A DNA stretch of 36,813 bases from the NCBI GenBank assembly GCA_963575655.1, contig CAUYTY010000189.1, forward strand, positions 1 through 36,813, read 5' to 3'. Source of the DNA: Gammaproteobacteria bacterium (GTDB taxonomy: Bacteria > Pseudomonadota > Gammaproteobacteria > CAIRSR01). The notes below the pieces were generated by a model, which was given only the letters and a program-made list of their open reading frames with translations, was not told the origin of the DNA and did no database searches. The number at the start of each line of letters is the position of its first letter. The stretch's first letter is position 1. Both the position numbers and the translations under genes were made by a program. Shown here piece by piece: positions 6,249-36,394 of the stretch.

Positions 6249-8078
6249 ATGCGCAAAAACAGTTTCCGTTTCTTGGTGGCGGGTGGTGCCGCCCTGTTTG
6301 TAGCCCTCTCCCTCGTTCCCGTTTTCAGCGGCGCGGACCCCGAGTTGCCGGATGAGGCCTTTGCCCAGGTCATCGCAGCCGATGATCCGTTTCCTCACCA
6401 GCAAGAACTCGCCGCCCGTGTCAGTTTTTGGCGTCACGTCTTCGGGGTCTGGGATCGTCGCCAGGTAGCCCTGCACGACATGAATAACCCAGGGTTGGTG
6501 TACGAGGTCCTGACTCTACCCGACTCAAAAACTGAGAGTCGTAGCACGGATCGAAAAGAATTCATCCGCGAGCATGTCGAAGACCTGTCCCAACGTCTCC
6601 ACACTCTAGAGCAGAAGGTCGCGCGGGGAAATGACCTCGACGACAACGAGCAGGCACTGCTGAACAAATTTCGGACGCTTGGCAAGGTCTCTCAGCTACC
6701 CGGTGCCCATGAGCGGATCCGAATCCAACGCGGTATCCGCGATAAGTTCCTAGAAGGGGTAGAGATTAGCGGGCGTTACGACGCTCAATTTCGGCAGATC
6801 TTCCGTGCCCACGGGGTACCCGAGGACCTAGCCTTCCTGCCTCATGTGGAATCCTCCTTCCAGACCGGTGCCCGTTCGAGCGTTGGCGCCGTGGGTATCT
6901 GGCAATTCACTCTATCGGCGGCCCGTACCTTCATGAAGGTAAACGCCGCAGTGGATGAACGCTACGACCCAGTACTGGCTGCTGAGGGCTGTGCTCGCTA
7001 CCTCGCCCATGCCTACGAACAACTCGGAGACTGGGGACTTGCCATTACCTCCTACAATCATGGTATCGGTGGGATGGCGCGGGCGTCATCCGAATTCGGT
7101 ACGGACTTCCCAAAGATTCTGGAGGAGTACGACGGCCCCCTCTTCGGTTTCGACTCTCGTAACTTCTACGTGGAATTCCTGGCGGCCCGCGAAGTGGCCC
7201 GCAATGCTGAGCGCTACTTCAGTGAGGTACACCGCGAACGTCCCTTGGGTTGGGAAAAGGTGGCCCTGGACCATTCCGCCCCAATTCACAAGGTGGCTCG
7301 TGAATATGGGGTTGGTCTGAATGAGCTTACGGAGATCAACACTGCCCTGACCACTAGCGCCATGAAGGGTCGAGTCGCGCTACCGGAAGGCACCTCGATC
7401 TGGCTACCGGCCGGTACTCAGCAGCGACTGGCGGCGCGCACGGTGGACGAGGAAACCCCGGCCGAGCGGCCGATCCGAGTGGTACGTGCGCCTGAACCGA
7501 CTGCCGCGCGGATGATGGTGGCCATGGCCGAAGATTCCCTGTCGACACGCCCCAAGAAATTAGATGTCCCGACTGTGACTCATCGCGTTTTGGCGAGCAA
7601 GGATGATGATGACGACGACGAAGCCGACGATAGCGACGACAACACCAAACGGACTTCCAGGCATGTATCCGTCCACAGCAAGGCAGAGACAAGGCCAAAG
7701 GTCGAAAAGACCGTAGCAAGAGATGCTCGTACCGAAGAAAAGGCGGTATCCACCAAGAAGGCTGACATTGCGTCCGCGAAGACCACCACTGTGGTCACCA
7801 AAGGCGCTCAGGCGAAGGGTCCTCAAGCCAAAACTGTGGCAAAGACCGCCAAGGCCCAACCATCCAAGACTGCCCAAACGAAGGTTGCGCAAGTCGCCAA
7901 AGCCGCTCCGAGCAAGGGACAGGCGGCGACGCCAGTCAAGGTTGCTGCGACCAAGGCAGCCTCGGCGGCAACAGCTAAGGCCGCTGCTAAGCCGGTTGCC
8001 AAAGCTTCAACCCCTCTCCCTTCGACTGCCAAGAAGAAGGTCGCCACGGCTGCCAAGGGAACTGGTCGCCACGGCTAA
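6249..8078 (+). CDS. MltD-like membrane-bound lytic transglycosylase with long Lys/Ala-rich tail
   Basis: Cleaves peptidoglycan glycan strands to leave 1,6-anhydromuramic acid ends. The ATG at 6249 is chosen because AGGGGAAG precedes it by seven bases and it begins a signal sequence (MRKNSFRFLVAGGAALFVALSL). The frame also opens upstream at 6171, but that reads through a terminator hairpin. The SLT domain carries the catalytic Glu in PHVESSF (about residue 201), GAVGIWQF (213-220) and YNHG (269-272). A LysM-like segment follows at about 343-388 (PIHKVAREYGVGLNELTEIN...). The last 200 residues are low complexity: an acidic stretch (KDDDDDDEADDSDD), then a Lys/Ala/Thr-rich tail that could bind wall polymers or DNA. 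Total 609 residues, longer than typical MltD. Confidence 0.88.
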   Translation: MRKNSFRFLVAGGAALFVALSLVPVFSGADPELPDEAFAQVIAADDPFPHQQELAARVSFWRHVFGVWDRRQVALHDMNNPGLVYEVLTLPDSKTESRSTDRKEFIREHVEDLSQRLHTLEQKVARGNDLDDNEQALLNKFRTLGKVSQLPGAHERIRIQRGIRDKFLEGVEISGRYDAQFRQIFRAHGVPEDLAFLPHVESSFQTGARSSVGAVGIWQFTLSAARTFMKVNAAVDERYDPVLAAEGCARYLAHAYEQLGDWGLAITSYNHGIGGMARASSEFGTDFPKILEEYDGPLFGFDSRNFYVEFLAAREVARNAERYFSEVHRERPLGWEKVALDHSAPIHKVAREYGVGLNELTEINTALTTSAMKGRVALPEGTSIWLPAGTQQRLAARTVDEETPAERPIRVVRAPEPTAARMMVAMAEDSLSTRPKKLDVPTVTHRVLASKDDDDDDEADDSDDNTKRTSRHVSVHSKAETRPKVEKTVARDARTEEKAVSTKKADIASAKTTTVVTKGAQAKGPQAKTVAKTAKAQPSKTAQTKVAQVAKAAPSKGQAATPVKVAATKAASAATAKAAAKPVAKASTPLPSTAKKKVATAAKGTGRHG

Positions 8079-16029: not shown

Positions 16030-17595
16030 TCATCCGGGATGCAGTACGTCAAATATGTCCATCTGATAATAGGTATATTCCCGAACGGTCAGTTTTGCAT
16101 TTTCCCCTTTGGTTCGGCGAAGATTCGGCTCGACGGAAAGGCTGGGTGCCTTATTTACGTAGGCTAATAGATCCGTGGGCGAAACGGCGGCGATATCATC
16201 ATTCTTTGCACGCCAGGAATCTTTTACGTACTCAAATACCGTACGCGAGACCTCGTCGTGTCGGACGAGACGTGCTACTAATAGGTCTTCCACGGAAAAT
16301 GCGGACACAACCACCGGTGAATGCGTATTAATGATCACCTGACGTAGCGGATTTCCTACCCTGAGCGTGGAATTGGTATCCACAACGGCATGATCCTCAA
16401 CCTGTAGATCTAATTGATTTTTAGCATTAACGGATGGTGTTGCCTCAGACGAACCAATATTCTCTACGGACCGGCTGATTTGTTCTTGGGTATCCACCGC
16501 CTTCTTGGTATCGACCACCATCTCACGCAAAAGTTGAAGAATCGCGGAAATCCGCGAGGGATGGATGCCATTTTCCGGTTCCTCCAGACAGAGGAGACGA
16601 CCCGATTCTGGGTCAGCGGAGAGAATCGCAAGTGCTAAGAACCTCAAGGTACCATCAGAAAGAGAACGAGCAGGATGACTGGTACCGTCGCGTCCACTGA
16701 CGTGCAAGGTGTAGGTTCTGCGGCTATCGTCCCGCTCCACGGATACCGAACCCACGTCATCTAATAGATTGGCCAGTCGATTCGAAACCTCGGTTTCGGC
16801 CCGAAGACGTAGTAGCGTCGCTGCCATGTGCCCGCCATTCGAGGCAAGGTGCGCATCCGCAGAAAAAGCATCGGGCTGTCGTAGCGCGGAGGGCTCCAAT
16901 TGAAAAAGAGTCCAACCTTGCATCTCACGACGCGCCGCCAGAACGGTCGGGTAATCGTTAGTATTAATCCCCCCGACAATTGTCTTTGGCGAAACAGCAG
17001 CCGGCACACGAAACGGCGGTCCTTTGGCGCCACCATCTTGATGCAGTTGGATAATGGTGTTGCCGTCTTTGGTTTCAGTCGAGATAAAAGGGGTACTGCG
17101 CCGTTTACTCTTGACCGCTGAGTTACGGAATACCGGGGTTGTCGGAAATCCGAGTTCTGCCTCTACCACCGTCTTTAAAATATACGTCAATTTCTCGTAG
17201 AGTAACTCGATCCGCTCTGCAGATTTCTCACTACTTGCGGTATAACGCAAGCCTAATTCATAGCGGAGAAAAGTTGCGGTCGGCGTCGCCACCCGATTAA
17301 AATCATCATAGATTCGATCCGGGACAATAAAATCGGCCTCGATACGCACATCCGGCGGGCATAACTGGCCCTGGGTAAAAATAGCGCGAATATCTCCCGT
17401 TCTCCCCGCAGGGTCGCGTACCCGAGATGCCGCCTCAATAATCGGAAACTCAGTCAAATCACGTAGGAACTGTATAGCGTCGAACAGATTCGACTTTCCT
17501 ACACCGTTTGCCCCCGCGATACAGGTAAAGGGACCAAAGCGTACCTCGACATCTTCAAAGCTCTTGAATCCTTGTAACCTAATTCGCGTCAGCAT
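16030..17595 (-). CDS. AAA_21-type ATPase (SMC/RecF-like, OLD-related)
   Basis: A 521-residue ATPase of the AAA_15/AAA_21 group, relatives of RecF, Rad50 and OLD-family ATPases. The start at 17595 gives MLTRIRLQGFKSF, the standard beginning; a second ATG six codons upstream is possible. Motifs: Walker A GANGVGKS (28-35), an ABC-like signature LSDGTLRFLALAILS, Walker B LLCLEEPENGIHP and the His switch INTHSPVVVSAF. A stretch rich in polar residues lies between Walker B and the His switch. No TOPRIM nuclease domain is seen, so it is not a complete OLD nuclease, and no obvious effector gene is adjacent. Such ATPases often occur in phage-defence loci, but here this is only an inference. Confidence 0.85.
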   Translation of the reverse strand: MLTRIRLQGFKSFEDVEVRFGPFTCIAGANGVGKSNLFDAIQFLRDLTEFPIIEAASRVRDPAGRTGDIRAIFTQGQLCPPDVRIEADFIVPDRIYDDFNRVATPTATFLRYELGLRYTASSEKSAERIELLYEKLTYILKTVVEAELGFPTTPVFRNSAVKSKRRSTPFISTETKDGNTIIQLHQDGGAKGPPFRVPAAVSPKTIVGGINTNDYPTVLAARREMQGWTLFQLEPSALRQPDAFSADAHLASNGGHMAATLLRLRAETEVSNRLANLLDDVGSVSVERDDSRRTYTLHVSGRDGTSHPARSLSDGTLRFLALAILSADPESGRLLCLEEPENGIHPSRISAILQLLREMVVDTKKAVDTQEQISRSVENIGSSEATPSVNAKNQLDLQVEDHAVVDTNSTLRVGNPLRQVIINTHSPVVVSAFSVEDLLVARLVRHDEVSRTVFEYVKDSWRAKNDDIAAVSPTDLLAYVNKAPSLSVEPNLRRTKGENAKLTVREYTYYQMDIFDVLHPG

Positions 17596-17708
17596 CACAG
17601 AGCTCTCAGGCAATTACGTGGAATAGGTATCAGACGGGCAGACATAGAATGCTCATCCTGAACATAATGATTTTGGTTAGAACGAATGGGAGGGGATAAC
17701 AAAAGGAT

Positions 17709-24891: not shown

Positions 24892-27800
24892 TCATCCTTC
24901 GTCAACGGTGGGGGAATTCCCCTTTTTTTCGGCAATGCCCAGCCAGTGACGTATCCGCGTCTGAAGCTCCAGGTCTTCAGGTGGGAGCAGGGCAAGAGCT
25001 TTCTGGTACCAATACTTGGCCTTATCCAAATCGCGCAAGTTAGGTAGGTCCTGGTAGGCCAACCCCAACTGAAAGGCGATGATAGCTGTGCCACGATAGT
25101 TGCCAACACGCTCATTCAATTCCAATGCTACTTGAAAGGGGTGAAGGCAGTCAGCCTTCTCCTGTTTTCGTAACAGATGGCCGAGTTTCAGGATGGACAA
25201 CGCTAGGTTTTGGATACGGGTATGCGCCCCGTCGTCTAACGACTCCGGGGGACGGTCCAGCAGCCCAGCAGCACGTCGACGATCCCAATCAATGCGCAAC
25301 TGCTGCAAGCGCTCTGCCTGTGGCCAGTCTTCAAACCAGGAGGCAAGTTCAACTCGATAGTCAGTAATCTGCCCCCAATACTCTTCCCGGTCAGGGTCAT
25401 CCGAGATAGGGCCGTCGGTCTCATGGTTCACAAAGTCGGTGGTTAGCTTCTCCACGACCCCAGACCAAGCATCTTTCCGCTGGGCGTGGTGATACAGGGC
25501 CAAAAGACCACGCGCAACACTAATAACAATGTCCCACTGCTCCTGTTCACGAGCGAGTTGCCAGGCTTGGCACAGGTTTGCCTCCTCATTCACGAGGATA
25601 TTTAGCGCATCAGAATTTTCACATATATATTCATTGTGGTAATAATCGCCTATATCCTTCATTGCCATCACATAAGTGCTCTCAGCGATTACCTTTGCTT
25701 CATCGTCAAATTTGGTCGTAAATAGTCGCGAGAAGATCACCGATCGGAGAGGGTCGATATTGTAGTAACCTTCGCCAAGACGAATAAGCATCTTTGCATC
25801 GGCCGCCCGATCCAAAATTGGGTCCCAATCCTCCGGGGCTAGATCACTAAAAACGGTAGGATGGACCTTGGGATCTAGGTAACCACCCATCCAGACCAAA
25901 GTATCCACGTCTACAAATCCCCGGAACAGATGAAGCAGACCTAACAGGCACTGTTGCTGCTCAGTAAAACCTAATTCCGTGAATTGATAGGCGAGAATAA
26001 TACCTAGGGGATAGTCATAACCCGGGGCAATGATCTCCGAGAATTCCCCATTGCTAATTTTTTTAGTGATTAAGAGGGCATTAATAAATGCCGCAATCTG
26101 TTTCGCAGTCTTCAGTTCTTTTTGGAGGACCACCTCGGTAAGTAACGTCAACGCAGAGGGGTTGCCCTCGGCAAAGTCAAGTAGAGGACGCCAGATGGTC
26201 GGGTCAGGAAGTTCTCGTCCGAATTTCCTGGAAATATCCCGAATCAGAGACAATCCTTCTTGGATCGGCAGTGGTAATAACCGCACACGTCTCGGAATTT
26301 GACCTAGCCACGTCTGTTCTTCGCAATAAGAGAGAAGCAAAATCTGGACATTGGTCCGCGTAATAACACGCATAAGAAATCTGACAGACTTTCGTTCCTC
26401 CGTATTCCATGATGAATTAGCAATCGACTCCACATGGTCCCAGACCCACAATATCAGAACATCTGAGGACCTGATTAAAATCCGTATGATGAAGCGTATC
26501 CTTTGACGTTGTTCCGTGGGAGGAGGCCAAGGCATGCCTTCTTGTTCTGCAAAGGGTTCTAATTTTTCACAGATGTCGTTTAAGAGTCGATCGACGGTTC
26601 GATAATGGGTCAAATCACTCCATATCAATAGATGGTCAGGATGGTCAACAAAATGCGCGGCCTTCATCATCCAGCGCATCAATTCAGCTGCAGCTTGGGT
26701 CTTGCCACTGCCGACAGGGCCGTGGAGTAGAACTGTATTGTGATGCCTAAAGGCCCGCAACAAAAGTGCAAAGGTTTCGTCACGACCTAAGAAACCAACA
26801 CTGGAACGGATTGGCAGCTTCCATTGCATATGCTCGGGTAAGGGGGCTGCATTCTTGGGCAATTTGAGCGCAGGACGACGGCTGGGGGGAAAAAGTCGCT
26901 GCGGGCTTGCCTCGTAAACGATTGGTGCAATCCAATCGTCGGGAAGATTAAGCGCGGCTAACCCCACTTCACGTTGAGGCTGCCGGTATAAATGTCGACG
27001 ACCACGATTAACCGCCTCTCCCAGGGTGCAACCCGCCTCCAAGGCGGAATAGAGGTTAGTGACAAATTGGGCAGAGGCTGCAATGGGGATCATATAGTTC
27101 AAGGCAACAACGCCATTGGCGCCGTTCTCCAAAACTTTCTGACCCAGGGAGGAGACACCATAAATCTGGTAGTAGGGGTCGTGGGCGTATGAAGCGTTCG
27201 AGCTATCAGAGTCTGGATTCTCCACGTAATGCAGGTGGCAGCTATTGATCAGCAACCAGGGGGTGTCGGTCTCAACCATAAGTTTGCCTAGAGCGCTCCC
27301 GTCGACGGGACGATGACTGATACCGCGCCCAGTGGGCTCAAGCAACAGATAGCCCTGGTAACCTAAGCGTTTCTTACTCATCATACGCACGATTAGGGAG
27401 ACTAATCGAGACTTCAACCACCCAACCAAGTTCCGGTAAGGAAGTTGCGTCGGATCTACCGAGACCACCTGACCGTCGTAGTGGATCACATGGAAGGGAC
27501 GACCCTGCTCCTTGGCTTGGTGTAGGCGTTCGGTCAGAGCCTTCAAAGTGGGAGGATAGAGTACCTCCAGGTCTAAACGATTCTGTGCTGCTGTTGACAG
27601 TCTCTGGAGGATGTGCCGCGTTATCGGACGGAAGGGTACGCCATCCGTCTCTTCGACGTGAACAATAACGCACAGAACGCGTAGTTTACCTTCGCCTGGC
27701 GGGAACGTAGCGGGAGAGAATGGGTTAACGACACGGACGAAGGAGCGAGTGAGTGAGGCCAGCGGTTCACCACCAGCCGGGTCGCGCAGCAATTCCCAAG

Positions 27801-28296
27801 GAGGTCCCACGATCTGCTCTTGGGAAGGGCTATCAGTACTGGATATCTCAACACATAGGCGATTCAACGCCTGCTTGGCCCGCTCCCAAAGGACACGACT
27901 CTCCTCATTGGCCAGGAACAAGATCTTGAACAGGGTTTCGCCGAGTTCTTTCAAACGAAGTCGGGCTTGGGTAACACGATCGTTGCCCTGATGTTCAATA
28001 GGGTATTGGGGGTACTCTTCGAGGTACCAGTGGATCTCAGCCGCGTCATGGGATTCCCGGCGATAGAGGAAATCCGCAGTAGTCGCGGCGAAGATCCCCT
28101 TGCTATCGAGGGTAAGGAGGCAACGGTAGTGGTCATTTCCCAAGAATATCTGGGTAATCTTTAGAGTAGGATAGTCCACGACGATCTGTAGTTGAGATAT
28201 TCGAGCCGATCGACAATTATGACCTAACTCTTTTAAGGTTGCTCTAACCAATGCCCTGATTTTAGTATTATCCCTTCGCCCAGTCAGTTTGGGCAA
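24892..28296 (-). CDS. CHAT-domain protease fused to STAND/NB-ARC-like ATPase and TPR repeats
   Basis: A 1134-residue protein. After an N-terminal region of about 160 residues, GPPWELLRDP (164-173) leads into a CHAT (caspase-like) protease domain. Its likely catalytic His272 lies in FHVIHYDGQ and Cys353 in LLINSCHLHY; GANGVVALNYMIP follows. A STAND/NB-ARC-like ATPase comes next: FLGRDE at about 502, Walker A GPVGSGKT (526-533), a Walker-B-like VLILWVWDH (613-621) and GNPSAL (711-716). The C-terminal third is helical with TPR-like repeats from about 1050 (LGLAYQDLPNLRDLDKAKYWYQKAL). No signal or membrane segment is seen. CHAT-ATPase-TPR proteins are suspected immune or cell-death sensors; that role is inferred. 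The first start codon after an in-frame TAA is TTG at 28296, with no strong ribosome site, so the start is uncertain. Confidence 0.87.
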   Translation of the reverse strand: MPKLTGRRDNTKIRALVRATLKELGHNCRSARISQLQIVVDYPTLKITQIFLGNDHYRCLLTLDSKGIFAATTADFLYRRESHDAAEIHWYLEEYPQYPIEHQGNDRVTQARLRLKELGETLFKILFLANEESRVLWERAKQALNRLCVEISSTDSPSQEQIVGPPWELLRDPAGGEPLASLTRSFVRVVNPFSPATFPPGEGKLRVLCVIVHVEETDGVPFRPITRHILQRLSTAAQNRLDLEVLYPPTLKALTERLHQAKEQGRPFHVIHYDGQVVSVDPTQLPYRNLVGWLKSRLVSLIVRMMSKKRLGYQGYLLLEPTGRGISHRPVDGSALGKLMVETDTPWLLINSCHLHYVENPDSDSSNASYAHDPYYQIYGVSSLGQKVLENGANGVVALNYMIPIAASAQFVTNLYSALEAGCTLGEAVNRGRRHLYRQPQREVGLAALNLPDDWIAPIVYEASPQRLFPPSRRPALKLPKNAAPLPEHMQWKLPIRSSVGFLGRDETFALLLRAFRHHNTVLLHGPVGSGKTQAAAELMRWMMKAAHFVDHPDHLLIWSDLTHYRTVDRLLNDICEKLEPFAEQEGMPWPPPTEQRQRIRFIIRILIRSSDVLILWVWDHVESIANSSWNTEERKSVRFLMRVITRTNVQILLLSYCEEQTWLGQIPRRVRLLPLPIQEGLSLIRDISRKFGRELPDPTIWRPLLDFAEGNPSALTLLTEVVLQKELKTAKQIAAFINALLITKKISNGEFSEIIAPGYDYPLGIILAYQFTELGFTEQQQCLLGLLHLFRGFVDVDTLVWMGGYLDPKVHPTVFSDLAPEDWDPILDRAADAKMLIRLGEGYYNIDPLRSVIFSRLFTTKFDDEAKVIAESTYVMAMKDIGDYYHNEYICENSDALNILVNEEANLCQAWQLAREQEQWDIVISVARGLLALYHHAQRKDAWSGVVEKLTTDFVNHETDGPISDDPDREEYWGQITDYRVELASWFEDWPQAERLQQLRIDWDRRRAAGLLDRPPESLDDGAHTRIQNLALSILKLGHLLRKQEKADCLHPFQVALELNERVGNYRGTAIIAFQLGLAYQDLPNLRDLDKAKYWYQKALALLPPEDLELQTRIRHWLGIAEKKGNSPTVDEG

Positions 28297-28358: not shown

Positions 28359-28835
28359 ATGCAAAAGGTGCCTTTGACTGCCCGGGGTGCGGAGAAGTTG
28401 CGTACAGAGCTACAACACCTCAAGAGCGTGGCACGACCCACCGTTATCAAGGCCATCGCCGAGGCGCGCGCCCACGGCGACCTGAAGGAAAATGCCGAGT
28501 ACCACGCCGCCCGTGAGCAGCAGAGTTTTATCGAGGGAAGGATCAATGAATTGGAGTCGAAACTATCCACCGCCCAGATCATTGATGTAACTACCGTTAA
28601 CGCCCATGGAAAGGTGGTCTTCGGTACTACGATCACTCTGGTCAATGTCGAGACCGAGGACGAGGTAACCTATCAGATTGTGGGCGAAGAGGAGGCCGAT
28701 CTCAAGCAGAACTTGGTCTCTATCACTTCTCCCATTGCCCGTGCCCTCATTGGAAAAACCAATGGTGATACGGTTCTGGTTCGTGCCCCAAGCGGCGAAA
28801 TAGAATACGAAATCACGGATGTTCGCTACGTATAG
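28359..28835 (+). CDS. greA: Transcription elongation factor GreA
   Basis: GreA enters the RNA polymerase secondary channel and stimulates cleavage of backtracked RNA. The 158-residue length and both domains fit: the N-terminal coiled coil with [23 protein letters not shown], whose acidic tip (Asp and Glu) is catalytic, and the C-terminal FKBP-like domain ([24 protein letters not shown]). The ATG at 28359 has GAGGA seven bases upstream. In many Gammaproteobacteria greA follows carB; here it stands alone, divergent from the CHAT-STAND gene. Confidence 0.98.
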
Positions 28836-36070: not shown

Positions 36071-36109
36071 GTTTGTGCATTTGTAATTACGAACATGATA
36101 CGGTTGTGC

Positions 36110-36394
36110 ATGAAGATTTCGGGATTCGATTGGGACGACGGCAACTGGCCGAAGTGCGGCAAGCATGGTGTTTCACGCGAAGAAATCGAACAGGTGCTGA
36201 CGGGGACGCCTGCCGTGATGGCCGATCCGTATCCCGGCGAGCCGCGCATGAGGGCCATCGGAAAGACGGCAGCTGGCCGCTACATCTTTCTGGTGTTCAT
36301 GCCCCGCGAGATTGACGGACAAACCATGCTACGTCCGGTCAGCGCCCGTTACATGCACAGGAAGGAGATAGAGCACTATGAAAGCCAAATCTAA
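36110..36394 (+). CDS. brnT: BrnT-family toxin
   Basis: A 94-residue toxin of the BrnT family, RelE-fold ribonucleases that stop translation. The start MKISGFDWDDGNWPKCGKHG fits the family pattern 'F.WD..K...N..KHGVS'. HGVSREEIEQVL, then a strand KTAAGRYIFLVFMPRE and RPVSARYMHRKEIEHYE (the conserved 'RPISAR..' end) follow. I choose the ATG at 36110; an ATG at 36095 in frame is possible, and neither has a clear Shine-Dalgarno sequence. It overlaps the antitoxin gene by 17 bases, toxin first, the usual brnTA order. Confidence 0.88.
   Translation: MKISGFDWDDGNWPKCGKHGVSREEIEQVLTGTPAVMADPYPGEPRMRAIGKTAAGRYIFLVFMPREIDGQTMLRPVSARYMHRKEIEHYESQI

Follow-up and report, generated by a model that had tools for sequence, protein, structure and literature searches.

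Gene, neighbourhood and domain order

Within the window, which is the whole 36,813-nucleotide stretch of DNA analysed, a CHAT-STAND-TPR gene lies on the minus strand at 24892..28296. The 1134-residue frame reported there by an earlier note is real and uninterrupted, with 1134 codons counted from the first listed TTG. It is not a chance frame, because one genome of the genus carries an ortholog with 49-50% identity along the full length and one motif scan of genome contigs returned 341 relatives. The start is perhaps further in, at TTG 28251 or GTG 28179 (residue 40); residues 1-40 mostly have low pLDDT in the AlphaFold2 model (block means 41, 69, 52 and 46), and most relatives have no counterpart to them.

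The plus-strand gene greA (28359..28835) is the divergent neighbour and also adjoins the ortholog in the sister species, so that the divergence described earlier was seen in both. The downstream gene encodes a DUF4389 protein here, compared to an NnrU-like protein in the sister species. A conserved partner adjoining the gene was looked for in both species and none was found, the downstream genes being different, which bears out the earlier observation that no obvious partner is adjacent. EACC1 is a small one-TM gene 5' of and adjoining its caspase gene (PMC7159879); this two-gene arrangement was not found at the locus, where the neighbours are greA and the DUF4389 protein gene. Profiles of PADLOC-DB 2.0.0 gave zero matches to the window protein at E up to 1. 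The gene holds a conserved place by greA in both genomes, not on an evident defence island, and it was not found in two genomes of the family's other genus. Elsewhere in the window, a BrnT-type toxin gene (36095-36394, plus strand; Pfam, 56 bits) lies near the contig end, and an AAA_21/AAA_15 ATPase gene (AbiEii-type or OLD-like; 16030-17613, minus strand) is possibly defence-related.

The order CHAT, STAND, TPR proposed in the earlier note was confirmed by Pfam (for CHAT), by fold matches and by the predicted helices of a full-protein AlphaFold2 model (built from 66 sequences; mean pLDDT 85.4, pTM 0.80). An N-terminal domain of about residues 40-200 (27697..28179, minus strand), in which the WY.E and PPWELL motifs are kept in relatives, is matched to the part of Csx29 and separase lying before the active caspase domain. 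It is followed by a catalytically degenerate CHAT domain of caspase/separase fold (about residues 200-470; 26887..27699, minus strand), assigned by Pfam and by fold; the Pfam match (PF12770, 26.2 bits against a cut-off of 24) covered only profile positions 161-282 of 289. The STAND NTPase core (about residues 497-720; 26137..26808, minus strand) was recognised from Apaf-1 and CED-4 fold matches, and several Pfam NTPase models matched under their cut-offs (AAA_16, 27.7 of 32.6, 4.4e-6; AAA_22, 25.2 of 27; nSTAND3, 22 of 27.2). Its Walker A motif GPVGSGKT (residues 526-533; 26698..26721, minus strand) is intact, and an acidic Walker B (Asp620) and a GxP motif (Gly711/Pro713, within GNPS 711-714) are present. 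TPR-like helical repeats (about residues 865-1132; 24901..25704, minus strand) were assigned from the model, in which helical pairs extend to the C terminus, and from the fold match of residues 795-1108 to the TPR protein BtubC (Z 15.2); the Pfam match to TPR_12 was weak and under cut-off (3.9e-4). A variable insert of about residues 287-310 (27367..27438, minus strand), partly of low pLDDT, contains a hydrophobic cationic helix. We considered this insert after Gln276 as a newly gained membrane helix and dropped the idea, as intact relatives have comparable helices, though less cationic ones.

Over their full span, residues 40-472 best matched the fold of separase (residues 1710-2219; Z 19.7, rmsd 4.1, 309 residues), which is an active cohesin protease and only about 15-16% identical. 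Residues 40-466 matched Csx29, the TPR-CHAT protein of the type III-E CRISPR Craspase (residues 419-750; Z 18.3), which shares the paired caspase-like fold and TPR but lacks STAND, is activated by the Cas7-11 RNA complex and has an intact H615/C658 dyad (PMC10028731). SAVED-CHAT (8tl0) matched at Z 17-19 (18.6 for residues 200-469 and 17.1 for the CHAT part modelled alone, which matched DdvA at Z 13.7); it carries a SAVED sensor domain in place of STAND-TPR and has the HG motif. The NTPase fold with its helical extension resembles Apaf-1, CED-4 and plant NB-ARC receptors (Z 15-17; Apaf-1, Z 17.0 over residues 482-1010), but for Apaf-1 and CED-4 the caspase is a separate, recruited protein, whereas the window protein has a caspase fold on the same chain.

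Relatives and the catalytic and switch positions

A single-sequence scan of genome contigs found no relatives, whereas an alignment-based scan found them. The motif-scan relatives, 79 loci of which were retrieved, belong to Chloroflexota, Acidobacteriota, Cyanobacteriota, Actinomycetota, Planctomycetota, Beggiatoa-like and methylotrophic Proteobacteria, and Methanothrix, and many of them are collinear across most of the length. Further relatives lie on plasmids of Streptomyces, Nostoc and Tolypothrix, and only two with the motif used were found on viral contigs. Their annotations read only CHAT domain-containing, TPR or hypothetical protein. Against PDB sequences, phmmer with the window protein and with a Streptomyces CHAT gave no CHAT match, and with a full-length profile, TPR proteins dominated the matches. 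Among the relatives of the same architecture without TIR (L041 of Parabeggiatoa HSG14, G241, Anaerolineales, Streptomyces avidinii WP_331732656.1 and Nostoc), collinearity at 21-37% identity goes with common PPWELL, HxDG, NxC, Walker A and WDxxE motifs; these proteins differ from the window protein in retaining the HG His, the strand-end Args and the sensor-1 Arg, and some have small adjacent partner genes.

The earlier note had called the catalytic residues intact, naming His272 and Cys353. Cys353 (27238..27240, minus strand) is indeed the dyad Cys, kept in both species and present in 108/110 relatives, but His272 (27481..27483, minus strand) is an invariant strand residue and not the dyad His. 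In caspase-fold proteases, Gly comes right after the dyad His. The relatives read H-F-D-G-H-G, both histidines being invariant (109/109 with letters there), compared to H272-Y-D-G-Q276-V277 in the window protein and HYDGEG in the ortholog; the dyad position is therefore occupied by Gln276 (27469..27471, minus strand), with Glu in the ortholog. In a profile alignment, HILHFIGHG and LNACC of SAVED-CHAT (8tl0) align with HIVHFDGHG and LNAC, which places the dyad His at position 276, and two intact CHAT proteins of the own genome read HLASHG or HIASHG. In the CHAT model, His272 is predicted within strand 270-274 and Gln276 directly beyond it; Cys353 likewise directly follows strand 347-352. This placement agrees with 276 being the dyad position.

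The motif scan required His or Gln at 276, which biases its count of intact relatives. As a check on this bias, a whole-protein profile with no fixed motif was run over 398 genomes of the phylum; its 20 other matches had His at 276 in 20/20 and Cys in 19/20. In class-level searches, G241, G035, G304 and G176 all had the HG His. The homologues lacking catalytic residues that the earlier note had considered were found in reverse: it is the window protein that lacks the real dyad, whereas its homologues carry it.

Three further conserved positions are changed in the window protein, and the ortholog also has the Arg replaced at each. His213 (27658..27660, minus strand), after beta-1, stands where 108/109 relatives with letters there have Arg, and may be the counterpart of the caspase P1-binding Arg. 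Tyr247 (27556..27558, minus strand), after beta-2, replaces an Arg present in 97/110 relatives with letters there. Tyr657 (26326..26328, minus strand; His in the ortholog) occupies a position at which 101/102 relatives have Arg, and which we take to be sensor 1 by analogy with Apaf-1 and from where it sits, at the end of strand 650-656. For annotation, it follows that the first His of HxxxHG in CHAT proteins should not be called catalytic.

Selection and a second degenerate family

Across 1058 aligned codons of the window gene and its ortholog, pN was 0.315 compared to a saturated pS of 0.755. Nonsynonymous change lay well below synonymous change in every domain, CHAT included, the values differing little from one domain to another, with a less clear result in a short stretch around Cys353. 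The full frame has no stop or frameshift in either species. Identity within the pair is 50%, compared to 80% for greA. Plain decay is less favoured by these data than purifying selection on the protein, of a kind that is faster than, and distinct from, the selection on its relatives.

The same two genomes also encode TIR-CHAT-STAND-TPR proteins, L012 (8793-13556, contig C259 of the own genome) and L014 (3064-7563, minus strand, sister species), in which TIR and CHAT were identified by Pfam (TIR under cut-off in L014). They share the CHAT-STAND-TPR core of the window protein with intact members of this type (L128-L130 and L137) and differ from the window protein by an extra N-terminal TIR and by belonging to a separate clade; the members from this genus are also without the Cys. 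In L012 and L014, Tyr stands at the HG position, Gly or Ala in place of the Cys, and His in place of the sensor-1 Arg. The combination His-Cys-Arg is present in 97/100 relatives with letters at all three places, with a single change in the other three, and TIR-type relatives are mostly intact. In the tree, the window protein with its ortholog and the TIR pair fall into two separate clades, both long-branched and both beside intact relatives, indicating two joint losses of catalytic His and sensor-1 Arg within a single genus. Two cases make a small sample, and the same pattern could come from a shared relaxed constraint.

Two other CHAT genes were observed in the own genome: L018 (4438-7674, contig C177), a TPR-CHAT whose HG motif is apparently lost (AFATPVL) and whose Cys remains (LLPICNTA), and L016 (about 6750-7553, minus strand, contig C110), an intact TPR-CHAT near a large repetitive hemagglutinin-like protein.

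Interpretation and candidate partners of intact relatives

We propose that the CHAT domain of this chromosomal protein is probably a maintained pseudoprotease in this genus. Judged from the residues replaced, peptidase activity has very likely been lost; that a non-proteolytic function is maintained is less certain, but still favoured. Of the sensor-switched protease suggested in the earlier note, the sensor, NTPase switch and caspase-fold design stood, while the switchable protease did not, the HG His, the two strand-end Args and the sensor-1 Arg being replaced in both species. Elsewhere this type is built as a sensor-switched caspase-fold protease; here, the TPR end would still sense something and the NTPase, with its intact Walker A, would still bind nucleotide, but without the sensor-1 Arg, hydrolysis or switching would be altered. 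The CHAT domain might then hold a protein that it does not cleave, serving as scaffold or decoy or acting as a brake on an active protease, of which the intact TPR-CHAT proteins encoded on contigs C110 and C206 are examples in the own genome. Eukaryotic pseudoproteases are well-known regulators of caspases and rhomboids. Precedents exist in catalytically inactive caspase-family domains of bacterial conflict systems (PMC7159879) and in pseudo-orthocaspases (PMC7889975), which likewise have a caspase fold with replaced catalytic residues but belong to other caspase families and architectures.

Cys353, kept in both species, speaks against this reading, as a pure pseudoprotease does not need it. 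Together with His272, also kept in both, and with the intact Walker A, it could instead belong to an active switched protease in which His272 or a residue elsewhere serves as base. We consider this very unlikely, because His272 is invariant also in relatives that carry the HG His, which argues for a separate role, and because it lies inside a strand four residues before the dyad position, with Arg213 and Arg247 replaced too. Slow decay, in which constraint on catalysis and switching relaxed after loss of a partner or substrate and little function is left, poses the more serious challenge to a maintained function: the fast evolution of the pair relative to greA and the long branch also fit relaxed constraint, several conserved positions are gone at once, no partner gene is present and two CHAT-STAND families degenerate in parallel within the genus. 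The intact full frames, the low nonsynonymous change in all domains and the retained place by greA nevertheless make decay the less plausible account, though one with appreciable weight.

The pseudoprotease reading would also be compatible with a housekeeping or signalling regulator outside phage defence, which differs in the pathway served. DdvA, an anti-sigma factor with a CHAT-fold domain, would be its model; it is among the closest solved CHAT-domain folds, and the stable greA-side place in two species and the lack of a PADLOC match point the same way. We regard such a role as unlikely, since the STAND-TPR architecture and the spread of the relatives resemble conflict systems (PMC7159879). 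The immune function suggested earlier is itself unproven.

The architecture, the fold and inactive caspase homologs in general are already known; the interesting part is that two families of one genus show the loss in parallel. On a tentative and rather doubtful extension of the pseudoprotease reading, two separately inherited families, with and without TIR, would have undergone a parallel conversion of proteases to non-proteolytic sensor-scaffolds, with joint loss of the His and the sensor-1 Arg in each case. Were this true, sensor-1-dependent switching would serve proteolytic output only, and the remaining protein would have a separate selected job, such as decoy or brake on active CHAT proteases. 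A maintained, full-length, dead bacterial NLR-like CHAT protein and a second dead family would, if real, offer a natural experiment on the roles of the NTPase and TPR parts without proteolysis.

Several protein families without a Pfam match recur beside intact relatives. At nine actinobacterial loci, a protein of about 125 residues with one hydrophobic segment begins where the CHAT-STAND-TPR gene ends or a short way beyond (L114, 11555-11938; L099, 7655-8026; also L036, L097, L107, L108, L109, L113 and L116), and is a candidate substrate or membrane effector. At eight cyanobacterial loci, a protein of about 140 residues with a hydrophobic C terminus is encoded near the gene (L105, 11513-11920; also L035, L037, L098, L101, L111, L112 and L115). 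Two more adjacent families recur by intact relatives in the clade of the window protein, one of about 220 residues (L045, 11687-12346; L082, L038 and L095) and one of about 306 residues (L072, 11620-12540; L054, L050 and L081). Recurring neighbours without a Pfam match were also found in Chloroflexota, Methanothrix, Cyanobacteria and Proteobacteria, and the recurring neighbours of intact relatives are candidate substrates or effectors of active systems.
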